Below, piece by piece: positions 13,566 to 22,414 of a DNA stretch of 22,716 nt. Source of the stretch: Moraxellaceae bacterium (GTDB lineage: Bacteria; Pseudomonadota; Gammaproteobacteria; Pseudomonadales; Ketobacteraceae); assembly GCA_002402125.1 (NCBI GenBank), contig NVVG01000002.1, positions 28,942 through 51,657 on the forward strand. The letters run 5' to 3'. The first letter of the stretch is position 1. Every line of letters starts with the position of its first letter. The notes under the pieces were generated by a model that was not told where the DNA came from, made no database searches, and was given only the letters and a program-made list of their open reading frames with translations. The translations under genes and the position numbers were made by a program.

Positions 13566-14144
13566 ATGTTATTAATGATCGATAATTATGACTCATTTAC
13601 CTATAACGTGGTGCAGTACCTGGGTGAACTAGGGGCGGATGTACACGTATATAGAAATGATGAAATTACACTGGAAGAAATTGAAGCGCTAAACCCATCA
13701 AAGTTAGTGATATCTCCAGGTCCATGCACGCCAAATGAGGCAGGAATTTCGGTGGCCGCAATAAAACACTTTGCGGGGAAAATACCTATTTTAGGTGTCT
13801 GTTTGGGTCATCAAAGTATTGCCAGTGTGTTTGGCGGTGAAGTGGTTCGAGCCGAACAGGTAATGCATGGTAAGACGTCGCCGATTTTTCATAAAGACGA
13901 AGGGGTGTTTAAAGGCTTGAAGATTCCCTTTGAGGCGACGCGTTACCATTCGTTGGTAGTTAAGCGAGAAGCATTGCCGGATTGTTTGGAAATGACCGCA
14001 TGGACACAGAGACAAGATGGTAGTGTGGAAAATATAATGGGACTGCGTCATCGAGAGTTTCAAATTGAAGGTGTGCAGTTTCATCCAGAGTCAATTTTGA
14101 CAGAGCATGGTCATGATCTGTTTAAAAACTTTTTGGATTTATAA
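13566..14144 (+). CDS. trpG: TrpG, anthranilate synthase glutamine amidotransferase subunit
   Basis: TrpG hydrolyses glutamine and channels ammonia to TrpE. The 192-aa class I amidotransferase starts [14 protein letters not shown], typical of the family. The nucleophile elbow is GVCLGHQS (77-84, Cys79), and the rest of the triad is in QFHPES (171-176, His173 and Glu175). The oxyanion region [11 protein letters not shown] (50-60) is also present. In many bacteria this subunit also serves PabB for folate synthesis; no pabB is in view. It follows trpE by six bases but is cut off from trpD by a flagellin-like gene on the opposite strand. The convergent gap (14145-14188) shows no clear terminator. 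Confidence 0.97.
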
Positions 14145-14188
14145 ATAATTGATTATGATTCACAAGGATGTGAAAACTGTTGGTTGAC

Positions 14189-15823
14189 TCAGCGTAAAAA
14201 AAATAACACTGTCGACGGGCTAGCGTTGGCTTGGGCTTGGATTGCAGTATCAATACTTTGTTGCATGAGTTTTTTAGAGAAGTTGGCAAATTGCGAGGCG
14301 GTGGTTCTATCGATAGTATTTCCAAAGGACGGAGTGCTATTTTCTCTTGGCTGCTGATAAATGCTGCCAAACTTCGTTAAACTAGATTCGAATTCAGCGT
14401 GCAAGTTGGACAGTTTATTGTTGAAAGTACGCAATTGCTTCATGGCTTGGTTGATATTGTTTAGGGCGTTTTCAGAATCAGCGCTTGTTTTTAGGTTGGT
14501 ATCCGCAATGGTGTTGCTGGTGAATTGGTTATCTAGAGTGCTATCCAGTGAGAAATCGTCAAACCCCGTCAGTGATTTGCTGCTACCAAAAAAACTCAGA
14601 TTATTATTGGCGGATAGAGTAACTCGACCACTGATACGCAAATCTGCAAAGCCTTGGCTAAAGCGGGATTGACCGCCACCAAAAATAAGGTTGTTGGTTT
14701 CCGCGGTTGTGGTGTTAATAATAATGTCTCTACCATCAACGGCTTCCAGAGTCAGTTCACCAGTGACAATATCCGTTGTGGCTTTAACACCAGTAAGCGC
14801 ACTAATGGCATTGATAGCATGTATTAACGTGCCTGCCGTATCCTTTTTTAGAAAAGTCACGCGATCTACATTGATACCATTTATCGCAAGATCGCCGCGA
14901 TCTATGCTGCCAGAGCCAATGTTGATATTGGTAGAGCGGTTTACAGTACCGGAAAAATCCCCATTGCTTACATCGCCAGCGCCGAAGGTGGTGGTTGCCG
15001 ATGCGAAAATATTGCGTAGGCTTGGAGTGCCTGACTCACGCAACGTGTTAATTCTAGCGGCCAACTGTTTGGCGCCACCAGAGCCAAAATCCTTGTGGGT
15101 GGAATCTGTTAACGAACGGGTGCGGGCAATGTTCTTCAGCAATGCCCCCAAACGTTGATCAGCAATGTTAATGGTTTCATTGATATTATGCCCTTCAACG
15201 AGAATAGAGAAATCGCTAATGATGTTGGTGCGAGCGTTACCTTCTTGTACGCCCTGATTGCCAATCACGCTATTTTGAAGTTGGATACGGTCGCCGGTAG
15301 ATTGTTTGAATCCTGGATGTATACCTAAAGATGCGGATCTGGCATCAAAGCCTTGAATGCTCTTTTGTGTTGGTTCGGTGAAGCTCAGTTGAAAGGAGAT
15401 GCGCTCAATACTGCCATCCAGTAAATTCTGCCCGTCCAGTGCTGCCGTGTTGGCGATGTCATCAATCAGTGAGACCAATACCTTGGCTTCTTCGTTGAGG
15501 GTTTCTCGCGTTTCTGCTGACGTATTGTCGCTAGCAGAACGGATAGCGAGGGCTTTTAGTTGTTCTAGGGCATTGCCTGTTTGCTGTAAAAAACGTTCCG
15601 TGGTTGTGGTAAAGGTATTTGCCGGATGAGCAGGGAAGGTGCTAGTGCTGGCGGCGGGGTTGGTTAACCCAGCAATGGGTTGATTGGAATCCACGCGCAA
15701 CTCGTTGCTTGCTTTGTCTGCAAGCTGCCGGGGGCTAAATTGAGTGGTTGGCGAGTTAATGTTGCTGCTTGTTGTTCCAACATACCCGCGAACATTTGAA
15801 CCTGTCGGCGAAATTGGTGGCAT
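14189..15823 (-). CDS. Orphan divergent flagellin-like protein inside the trp cluster
   Basis: The 544-aa product is flagellin-like at both ends. Residues 78-138 (ALEQLKALAIRSASDNTS ... LDGQNLLDGS) match the D1 helices and the FNG-KLLDG-type turn of flagellin N-domains. DLAINGINVD (311-320) to about 370 fits the Flagellin_IN hook motif. NALNNINQAMKQLRTFNN (452-469) and the end NFSKKLMQQSIDTAIQAQAN through VLFFLR match the flagellin C-domain. There is no cysteine and no tryptophan in the whole protein, as in most flagellins. The canonical start (xINTNxxSLxAQ ... RLSSGLRINSAxDDAAG) is reduced to something like KASNELRVDSNQPIAGL with an added proline-rich stretch. An AAGGTGA ribosome site supports the ATG. 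No flagellar gene adjoins it. FlgL is an alternative, but the C-terminus is more like FliC. Confidence 0.8.
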   Translation of the reverse strand: MPPISPTGSNVRGYVGTTSSNINSPTTQFSPRQLADKASNELRVDSNQPIAGLTNPAASTSTFPAHPANTFTTTTERFLQQTGNALEQLKALAIRSASDNTSAETRETLNEEAKVLVSLIDDIANTAALDGQNLLDGSIERISFQLSFTEPTQKSIQGFDARSASLGIHPGFKQSTGDRIQLQNSVIGNQGVQEGNARTNIISDFSILVEGHNINETINIADQRLGALLKNIARTRSLTDSTHKDFGSGGAKQLAARINTLRESGTPSLRNIFASATTTFGAGDVSNGDFSGTVNRSTNINIGSGSIDRGDLAINGINVDRVTFLKKDTAGTLIHAINAISALTGVKATTDIVTGELTLEAVDGRDIIINTTTAETNNLIFGGGQSRFSQGFADLRISGRVTLSANNNLSFFGSSKSLTGFDDFSLDSTLDNQFTSNTIADTNLKTSADSENALNNINQAMKQLRTFNNKLSNLHAEFESSLTKFGSIYQQPRENSTPSFGNTIDRTTASQFANFSKKLMQQSIDTAIQAQANASPSTVLFFLR

Positions 15824-15836
15824 AGGTGAATCACCT
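15824..15836 (-). promoter_or_regulatory. Palindrome enclosing the flagellin-like gene's ribosome binding site
   Basis: AGGTGAATCACCT is a perfect palindrome around one central base, immediately before the ATG. On the coding strand its AGGTGA half is the Shine-Dalgarno sequence. In RNA it could form a 5-bp stem with a 3-base loop that hides the ribosome site, or it could bind a dimeric regulator at the DNA level. Either role is inference from symmetry. Confidence 0.4.
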
Positions 15837-15859
15837 TTTTTACAACATACCTAATTACC

Positions 15860-15887
15860 ACGTTAGCACAGCTCAGGAATTGGTCAA
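15860..15887 (-). promoter_or_regulatory. Candidate sigma-70 promoter for the flagellin-like gene
   Basis: On the minus strand TTGACC (15887-15882), a 16-base spacer and TAACGT (15865-15860) form a plausible but weak promoter about 37 bases before the ATG. I looked for the flagellar sigma-28 pattern (TAAA, 15 bases, GCCGATAA) and for sigma-54 (GG and GC 10 bases apart) and found neither. That is unusual for a flagellin gene. Confidence 0.3.
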
Positions 15888-16046
15888 ATTTTAATCTAAT
15901 GTGGGATTTTTAGGTGTTTTTTCCTGGTTTTTCACGAACTTAGGCTATTTTTGCGGTTAATTGTGGATAGGTTGTGGTTGCTAGGTCGTTGTGGTGCTGA
16001 GGTTTTACTTACGCAAAAATGCTATTTCCGTTCCGCTCCATCTCAA

Positions 16047-16055
16047 TGCTACAAT
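16047..16055 (+). promoter_or_regulatory. Extended -10 promoter for trpDC
   Basis: TGCTACAAT is a TGn-extended -10 (TACAAT, 16050-16055). No good -35 is visible, which extended -10 promoters tolerate. Transcription would start near 16062, giving an untranslated leader of about 28 bases. That is too short for an attenuator, so trpDC seems to have its own simple promoter after being separated from trpEG. Confidence 0.5.
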
Positions 16056-16089
16056 CGCGTCTATCGATAACCCAGCACCGGAGTGATGG

Positions 16090-17124
16090 ATGGATATTAA
16101 ACAAGCGTTACAGAAAGTCATCGAAAGTCAGGATCTTACTGAAGCTGAGATGGGCGAAGTTATGCAGCAAATCATGACCGGCCAAGCGACAGATTCGCAA
16201 ATTGGCGGTTTTCTGATTGGGCTACGCATGAAAGGTGAAACTGTCGATGAGATTACCGGTGCTGCGAGCGTGATGCGCAAGCTGGCGAAACCGGTAAGCA
16301 TCAATCGGGATCATTTAGTAGATACCTGCGGTACCGGTGGTGATGGCGCCAACACCTTTAATATCTCTACTACTTGTGCCTTCGTGGTGGCCGCAGCAGG
16401 TGGTTTTGTGGCAAAGCATGGCAATCGTTCTGTTTCTAGTACCAGTGGCAGTGCTGACGTGCTGGAAGCGGCGGGCGTGAAGCTGGATATCACCCCAGAG
16501 CAGGTGGCTAATTGCGTGGAAGCTATTGGTGTGGGTTTTATGTTTGCGCCCATGCACCATAGTGCAATGAAACATGCTATCGGCCCGCGTAAAGAGATGG
16601 CGGTACGTACCATCTTTAATATCCTTGGCCCACTAACCAATCCCGCCGGAGCCGATAGTCAGGTAATGGGGGTGTATAGCAAACAGTGGGTTCGACCGGT
16701 TGCTGATGTGTTACTGCGCTTAGGCAGCCGACATGTGATGGTGGTGCATGCCGCCGATGGCTTAGATGAAATTAGTATCGCAGCCGAAACCTTTGTTGCA
16801 GAAGTCAAAAACGGTGAGGTTTCTGAATATACCATCACACCGGAGCAATTTGGTTTGTCGCGTTCGCCATTGTCCTCCATTGCCGCCGACGGCGTGCAAG
16901 ATAGCCTGAGAATTCTAAACACCGTGCTGGCCAATGAGGCAGGGCCTGCGGCAGATATCGTGGCATTAAATGCTGGTGCGGCTATCTATGTGGCGGGTAT
17001 CGCGGATAACCTGGCGCAAGGGATCGAAATGGCTCAAGATGCCATTGGCAGTGGTGTAGCGAAAGACAAATTGACAGAATTAGTGAACATGTCGGAAGTA
17101 TTTCGACTAGAGGCAGAGGCTTGA
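16090..17124 (+). CDS. trpD: TrpD, anthranilate phosphoribosyltransferase
   Basis: TrpD joins anthranilate to PRPP to form phosphoribosylanthranilate. The 344-aa protein is a stand-alone enzyme, not fused to TrpG as in E. coli. It has the helical N-terminal domain with [14 protein letters not shown] (38-51), the PRPP-binding DTCGTGGDG (78-86), the KHGNRSVSS loop (109-117), the anthranilate-binding [14 protein letters not shown] (156-169) and the metal-binding DGLDEIS near the middle of the C-terminal half. GGAG lies six bases before the ATG. The stop overlaps the trpC start (TGATG), so the two are translationally coupled. In Pseudomonas the order is trpG-trpD-trpC; here the flagellin-like gene and about 2 kb lie between trpG and trpD. 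Confidence 0.97.
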
Positions 17125-21079: not shown

Positions 21080-22414
21080 CTATTGTTTTGGTCCCTGCAC
21101 AAGATTAAATGCATCACGGATCGGTTGACTGGCTATTGCGGGCGTGTCTTTGATTCTGGCGGCAAATTCTTGTGGTGATATTCCACCAATCGAGTCGGTA
21201 AAATATGCGCTAAAGCGAAATTTAAACACGTCGTTGATGGGGATTTGATGTATTTTATAGCCAATGTTGGGTCCTTGCCCAGCAAAACGCTCAGGTGTTT
21301 CTTCTAGCGTTAGATTGTCTATGTAATGAAGGCTTATGGGCGCCTTGAAATTGCTGGGAACATGTAGTTCGGTATGAATGTCAAAACCCGCATTGGTGCT
21401 TAGCCAAATCCAACTTTTTCCATTGGTAACTAAATTACTGGAAAGTAGTTGTTCTGCTATAGACATTTGGCCATCAACTTTGGTCGGGATTGTTGGATTA
21501 AATGTGGTGAGTACGTCGCTACCCAGTAAGTTGTTGCCATCGATTGAGATGGTTGCTCGTGGGTTGTGTAAGAACGCCGCAAGGATGGCGGGTACATTAA
21601 TATCGACATCAATGTTAAATTGTTGTGGCAAAATATTAAAACGGATATCAAGGAATAGTACCGGGATCCTAGCAAATAGAAATTGGCTTTTGGCCAAGAT
21701 GATGGTGCGAATAGGACCTTGTTTAACCGCCGTTACTTGCGTTTTGATATCGCTATTGTCGAATGCGATGGAGGCGACATCAAAAACAACACCAGCTTCT
21801 ATACGAATCTTTAATGTATCCAATAAACTGCTTTGTTGATTGCCTTGGTAGGTTGCATAGGTGAAATCATTCCAGCTTAGGAGATCATTTGGGTTGGTAT
21901 GTAGAGAGAAATACTGTGATCGTATGATACCGGTGGTTTGATCGTATAACGTCAGTGGCAAGTGGTGTAGTGCTCTTAATTGGTCTGTCACATAGAGGTA
22001 GCGAACATCCTCTGTTTGGCTACTAAGAATTTGAATCTCGGCAATAATTTGAGTGAAGCCGGAATCGACAGAGTCCAATCGCTGACCGGTATCGGCATAG
22101 CGGAAAAATAACGAGTCATGAGGGTCAACAATGTTTTCTTGGCCTAACAACCGTACGCCGGATTCTTTAAACCAGCTGCGTCCCTCTACATCAAAATCTT
22201 CCAGTTGGTGAGGTACTGGGGTGAGCATGCCATTCTTAACGGACAGCACCGATAGGTCGGCAAATGATTTTCCGATCAACTCCGCGAGTTCAATGGCTTT
22301 TATCTCGATAACTTGTTGCGCTTCTACATGGAACCTATTCTTAGGGGCGGCAGTGGCAGCGAACGGCAGCATGGCACATATAAAAATGAGGCATGGCAAT
22401 GTCATTCTGATCAA
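21080..22414 (-). CDS. Exported protein of unknown function, 444 aa
   Basis: I do not recognise this family. The N-terminus is a clear signal peptide (MIRMTLPCLIFICAMLPFAA, likely cut after ATA at about 22). The remainder looks like a beta-rich periplasmic or surface protein with many alternating hydrophobic strands, for example VLFLDIRFNILPQQFNIDVD (about 255-275), and no further membrane helix. It has no lipobox and no obvious catalytic motif. The start is TTG at 22414, with AAGGAA seven bases upstream; this start also supplies the Arg needed in the signal peptide's n-region. The in-frame ATG three codons later (22405) is too far from that site and would lack the Arg. Its own extended -10 promoter lies at 22490-22498. 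A histidine phosphatase gene follows on the same strand. Confidence 0.8.
   Translation of the reverse strand: MIRMTLPCLIFICAMLPFAATAAPKNRFHVEAQQVIEIKAIELAELIGKSFADLSVLSVKNGMLTPVPHQLEDFDVEGRSWFKESGVRLLGQENIVDPHDSLFFRYADTGQRLDSVDSGFTQIIAEIQILSSQTEDVRYLYVTDQLRALHHLPLTLYDQTTGIIRSQYFSLHTNPNDLLSWNDFTYATYQGNQQSSLLDTLKIRIEAGVVFDVASIAFDNSDIKTQVTAVKQGPIRTIILAKSQFLFARIPVLFLDIRFNILPQQFNIDVDINVPAILAAFLHNPRATISIDGNNLLGSDVLTTFNPTIPTKVDGQMSIAEQLLSSNLVTNGKSWIWLSTNAGFDIHTELHVPSNFKAPISLHYIDNLTLEETPERFAGQGPNIGYKIHQIPINDVFKFRFSAYFTDSIGGISPQEFAARIKDTPAIASQPIRDAFNLVQGPKQ

Follow-up and report, generated by a model that had tools for sequence, protein, structure and literature searches.

The question raised by this locus is what a flagellin-like gene is doing between trpG and trpD. 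The DNA analysed here (the window), 22,716 nucleotides (nt) of contig C172 from a marine member of the family Ketobacteraceae, belongs to a 4.62-Mb assembly that is 87% complete. A preliminary description, made from its letters, had placed a 544-codon minus-strand gene for a flagellin-like protein in the trpG-trpD gap, convergent with trpG and divergent from trpD. The gene was confirmed at 14189-15823, the interval 14145-16089 being the entire gap and not the gene itself. It encodes a conserved, selected flagellin paralogue without the N-terminal D0 helix (D0-N), and this loss in a protein whose remainder is constrained is a point beyond the preliminary description. The first part of D1 was lost together with D0-N, which removes half of the polymerisation machinery, the one at the N-terminus; the rest of D1, the outer domains and the D0 helix at the C-terminus were kept. 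As related species keep the gene intact, the sequences suggest a job other than main filament formation.

The Pfam profiles bore out the flagellin-type D1 helices and the Flagellin_IN-like motif that had been described. Flagellin_N matched with an E-value of 6.7e-10, limited to profile positions 68-137 of 139 (protein residues 69-138) and so short of full length, while the sister protein L040 covered positions 1-135; Flagellin_IN matched at 1.4e-5. The claimed flagellin C-terminus held in part. Flagellin_C gave no row at E up to 1 for the window protein and none at 0.1 for the orthologues L034, L035 and L036, and the C-terminal homology, which is real, rests instead on alignment to paralogues, the pairwise alignment with the sister paralogue extending to residue 543. 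The NCBIfam flagellin model covered residues 211-543 at a score far under its cut-off (71 of 531 bits). In the predicted structure, residues 1-63 had a predicted local distance difference test score (pLDDT) under 50 and the first helix began only at residue 67; the control model had a helix at residues 9-32, itself of low confidence. By predicted structure and alignment, the trp-locus protein had no D0-N helix, and the D1 flagellin fold was present. The C-terminal helices (506-533 and 536-543) were predicted at low confidence, and the SRIxDxD stretch preceding the C-terminal helix was altered in the alignment. The protein shares with the flagellin FliC the D1 fold, an outer domain with the Flagellin_IN motif, a C-terminal helix with a QAN motif and the absence of cysteine, but it differs in having no D0-N helix, no match to the first 67 Flagellin_N positions and no Flagellin_C match, and its gene lies in the trp locus away from flagellar genes.

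The gene was found between trpG and trpD in all five genomes examined of the window's genus and in none of ten other genomes of the family. Orthologues were whole in the window genome, G001, G002 and G004, the latter three being 59-65% identical to the window protein, and the G003 copy was in two pieces at contig ends. An assembly chimera was rejected, as the gene order was identical in the five assemblies (G003 in two contigs), and recent horizontal transfer was rejected because the GC content of the gene, overall and at third codon positions, was close to the values of trpG and trpD. In an order-wide sample, 10 of 244 genomes matched at 1e-30, all of this family, and 35 of 57 relatives matched at 1e-3; the outside-family matches examined were the eight that entered the tree described below.

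Selection was measured as omega by YN00, and only pairs with finite synonymous divergence (dS) are quoted, dS being saturated in most pairs. Between G001 and G002 the whole-gene omega was 0.087, against 0.022 for trpG, 0.028 for trpD and 0.030 for fliC1 in the same pair; the trp-locus gene is constrained, though less tightly than these three. Regional values, taken from the close trio G001, G002 and G003 and rough because the regions are short, were 0.32-0.58 for codons 1-60, 0.04-0.11 for codons 65-150, 0.13-0.21 for codons 151-300, 0.06-0.07 for codons 301-440, 0.05-0.09 for codons 441-505 and 0-0.016 for the C-terminal codons 506-544. In these close species purifying selection acts on the protein beyond the N-terminal tail, most strongly on the C-terminal helix.

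A later start, at a GTG or TTG among codons 42-45 with codons 1-44 as a leader, was considered, since codons 2-30 had no third-position excess and a sigma-28-like site lay so close. Coding was assessed as protein-level similarity against 1000 column shuffles. Because the similarity of codons 2-42 over five species exceeded that of every shuffle (0/1000 as high), the tail is translated, and the later start was rejected; it was further disfavoured by the stops contained in 992 of the 1000 shuffles and by the first residues, which resemble a normal flagellin start. Codons 2-30 alone gave a weaker signal (27/1000 as high in the five species), and in the close trio 112/1000 shuffles scored as high for codons 2-30 and 15/1000 for codons 2-42.

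Table 1. Features of the trpG-trpD gap and its surroundings; positions are those of the window unless a locus label is given.
Feature	Position	Strand	Evidence or remark
trpG	13566..14144	+	GATase match (Pfam)
Flagellin-like gene, 544 aa, ATG start, N-terminal D0 lost	14189..15823	-	Pfam, alignment, predicted structure
C-terminal D0 helix region, residues 506-543, most constrained in close trio	14195..14308	-	omega; predicted structure
D1 C-side helix, residues 447-494	14342..14485	-	predicted structure
Flagellin_IN motif, residues 312-361, outer domain	14741..14890	-	Pfam
D1 N-side helices, residues 67-126	15446..15625	-	Pfam and predicted structure
Tail, codons 1-60, translated, disordered, fast-evolving, replacing D0-N and the start of D1	15644..15823	-	omega, coding signal, pLDDT
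Divergent intergenic region to trpD	15824..16089	.	GCCGATAA element of four orthologues absent in window species
Weak sigma-70-like pair TTGACC-N16-TAACGT (8 of 12)	15860..15887	-	read by eye
trpD	16090..17124	+	Glycos_transf_3 match (Pfam)
GH5-family gene, intact	L034:4096-5535; L036:10388-11827		
GH5 remnants	L035:8742-8898; L038:8006-8315		

The gene is not the main flagellin of the window genome. Two further flagellins stand in tandem on contig C95, followed by flaG and fliD (the contig end truncates the first flagellin), and the genome also has FliS and FlhA. The equivalent locus in G001, G003 and G004 runs from two fliC genes through a flaG-like and a fliD-like open reading frame (ORF) to fliS, the ORFs being named by eye from their first residues and FliS by a separate match. 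Two or three FlhA-family proteins were seen in G001, G002 and G004, which may reflect a second flagellar or injection-type export system. G008 carries an 803-aa flagellin with a doubled central region (L051:8080-10491) on a separate contig from its flagellin pair.

Four of the five trp copies entered a tree of 49 flagellins drawn from this family and others (the two-piece G003 orthologue was excluded). They grouped at 100/100 with two other flagellin sets outside the flagellar cluster, in what is here called the orphan clade. One set adjoins an iron-type alcohol dehydrogenase gene in G001, G003 and G004, with aldehyde-dehydrogenase- and glutamine-synthetase-type genes further on in G001 and G004; G003 was checked for the alcohol dehydrogenase neighbour. 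In G007, G011, G012 and G014 the second set is found close to a gene for a class II D/K/N-type tRNA synthetase, probably asnS (Pfam on the G014 copy only). Both sets differ from the trp copy in keeping the flagellin N-terminus in the alignment, and both orphans tested from other loci, L040 and L041, had full Flagellin_N and Flagellin_C matches. The stem of the trp set measured 1.35 changes per column, and its nearest sister within the clade was weakly supported (82/50). A second orphan flagellin of G003 (L061:1398-2204, 268 aa) shows the reverse of the trp copy: its outer domain is lost and both ends are kept. The idea of a relocated flagellin needed amendment: an extra paralogue does stand at the trp locus with the flagellar genes elsewhere, but it is not simply a relocated working flagellin, being a genus-wide member of the orphan clade that has lost D0-N.

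The sigma-28 promoter that the preliminary description had found missing is indeed absent in the window species, but four of the five orthologues carry a sigma-28-type element. This element, TAAR-N15-GCCGATAA (a perfect sigma-28 -10 and a partial -35), has the internal spacing seen before fliC2 and ends 14-15 nt upstream of their ATG; in each of the four 0/200 shuffles scored as high. Scores above chance were found for none of the four asn-type orphans, for one of three GLN-type orphans (G004 only) and for one of four cluster fliC1 genes (G001 only), with 1/200 shuffles as high in each of the latter two cases. Across the five whole genomes the sigma-28 pattern gave 45 sites versus 12 for the reversed control, and about a quarter of the 45 may be chance. 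Loci were examined for 30 of the 45; 19 have an ORF of at least 60 codons starting within 250 nt, and several of the ORFs behind such sites look flagella-unrelated or spurious by eye. Recurring targets were a 470-479-aa protein in four genomes (L174, L177, L193, L195; site 61-89 nt upstream), whose G000 copy had no Pfam match, and a 106-117-aa protein (site 31-104 nt upstream). The sigma-70-like pair in Table 1 is a weak candidate for an alternative promoter; the promoter scan, with its threshold of 9 of 12, did not report it, and the other four orthologues have a TGnTAAnnT-like stretch at the same place by eye (AG for TG in G004).

The window protein has neither cysteine nor tryptophan, as described, and this holds for each of the five orthologues, itself included; in the tree, the 38 flagellins that are not orphans together contain one Cys and six Trp. 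When the trp branch was simulated from the sister protein under a generic model, which makes the result a guide only, the four leaves held a mean of 18.6 Cys, no run of 500 gave a Cys-free set, and Trp was absent in 4/500.

In Pfam, no flagellar family was matched by any of the window's 19 further non-overlapping ORFs, in agreement with the preliminary description. Ordinary families were matched by 18 of the 19, including RrnaAD, PdxA, SurA, LptD, trpE, trpC, a Crp-type regulator, OsmC and AdoMet decarboxylase, and the ORF at 21080-22414 had no Pfam match at 1e-5. The view that the trp locus accepts insertions was upheld at the trpG-trpD junction; the suggested parallel with the R/F-pyocin site of P. 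aeruginosa concerns the trpE-trpG junction, a different one. In five relatives (G005, G007, G008, G009 and G010) trpG and trpD stand at most about 91 nt apart. Because several other genomes of the family carry different ORFs there (G006, G011, G012 and G013; mechanical ORFs, one in G013 overlapping the trpG end) or no nearby trpG (G014, none within 5.4 kb upstream of trpD), the junction was opened more than once. Named by eye, the gap ORFs in L159-L163 are regulator-like, glycosyltransferase-like or small, and efflux-type ORFs stand beside trpD in G014. Desulfoluna records and one Desulfobacterales metagenome-assembled genome (L094, L096, L097, L100) have a central domain that is 48-50% identical, and transfer is possible.

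A GH5-family gene lies between the flagellin-like gene and trpD in G002 and G004 (Pfam Cellulase, E 1e-40; NCBIfam endoglycoceramidase I, 176 bits against a cut-off of 700; lipoprotein signal judged by eye). In G001 and G003 only short colinear fragments of it remain, and the window gave no match to it. Within one gap the GH5 gene decayed while the flagellin-like gene stayed whole.

We prefer, tentatively and at a probability of about 0.45, to read the gene as a functional flagellin paralogue conserved in the genus, with late flagellar expression, FliS-assisted export and no normal polymerisation. In most species of the genus the protein would be made late with the flagellar regulon under sigma-28, its C-terminal helix would be bound by FliS and the protein passed to the flagellar export gate, with the disordered N-terminus threading the export channel. 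Flagellin filament formation requires both terminal D0 helices; without D0-N the protein would have no place in the filament core and would be released outside, or at most be a rare or terminal subunit. Among the roles first proposed (secretion substrate, adhesin, phage receptor), export alone receives indirect support. A fuller version seems rather doubtful as a whole: a duplicate flagellin would have become a conserved late flagellar-class protein without D0-N at the trp locus, made from a nearly leaderless sigma-28 transcript, exported and non-polymerising, as a soluble or surface product or a FliS-titrating regulator.

Several points weigh against the preferred reading. In Salmonella the flagellin export signal lies in the N-terminal region, the part lost here. 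The C-terminal helix is 54-59% identical between the window species and three others compared, and over the whole gene omega is three- to fourfold higher than for trpG, trpD and fliC1 in the same pair. The window species has no sigma-28 element, 175/200 shuffles scoring as high. Where the element exists, its 14-15 nt before the ATG compare with 31-109 nt for fliC2 and the 470-479-aa and 106-117-aa proteins, and because it ends there the transcript would be nearly leaderless, with the weak Shine-Dalgarno hardly on it. GCCGATAA occurs 12 times in 197.5 kb of genus loci (about 6 expected), nine times with TAAR at that spacing (five before fliC2 and four before the trp-locus gene), but these loci were chosen for holding flagellins.

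Three other functions seem unlikely to about the same degree. The protein could be a flagellin stump that is not exported and acts in the cytoplasm as a decoy for FliS or as a feedback sensor, its C-terminal helix being in competition with FliC for FliS. In close species no other part is as constrained as that helix, the N-terminus drifts, and each of five genomes has one FliS match; yet the outer domains, needless for a decoy, are also constrained (omega 0.06-0.21), and the persistent exclusion of Cys fits an exported protein better. Loss of D0-N and the adjoining part of D1, with the change in the SRIxDxD stretch, speaks against a minor or terminal filament subunit, one that would be incorporated only occasionally, perhaps at the tip or next to the junction, and might halt or alter growth, even though the D1 fold is kept and four species have a flagellar-type promoter element. 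By analogy with the alginate-binding cell-surface flagellin of Sphingomonas sp. A1 (PDB 2zbi, 3k8v and 3k8w), the protein might be a surface or secreted binder (adhesin or polysaccharide-binding), perhaps once paired with the GH5 lipoprotein. Ordinary flagellins match equally well, however, the missing ends in those entries are construct cuts (titles N20C20, N20C45), unlike the loss in the trp protein, and three of the five species have the GH5 gene in decayed form or gave no match to it, while the flagellin-like gene stays.

Much the least probable is a relic on its way to a pseudogene, and this is largely refuted: the long stem branch and relaxed N-terminus would suit it, but every one of the five species has an open frame (in G003 split in two pieces), omega is about 0.09, and in two of the species the GH5 gene that shares the gap is fragmented. 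On the preferred reading of an exported, non-polymerising paralogue, a selected flagellin with one D0 helix gone in five species would mean that export and chaperone binding have been separated from polymerisation in nature, and the gene may serve as a test case for the uses of the C-terminal helix alone and for non-motility roles of flagellins.
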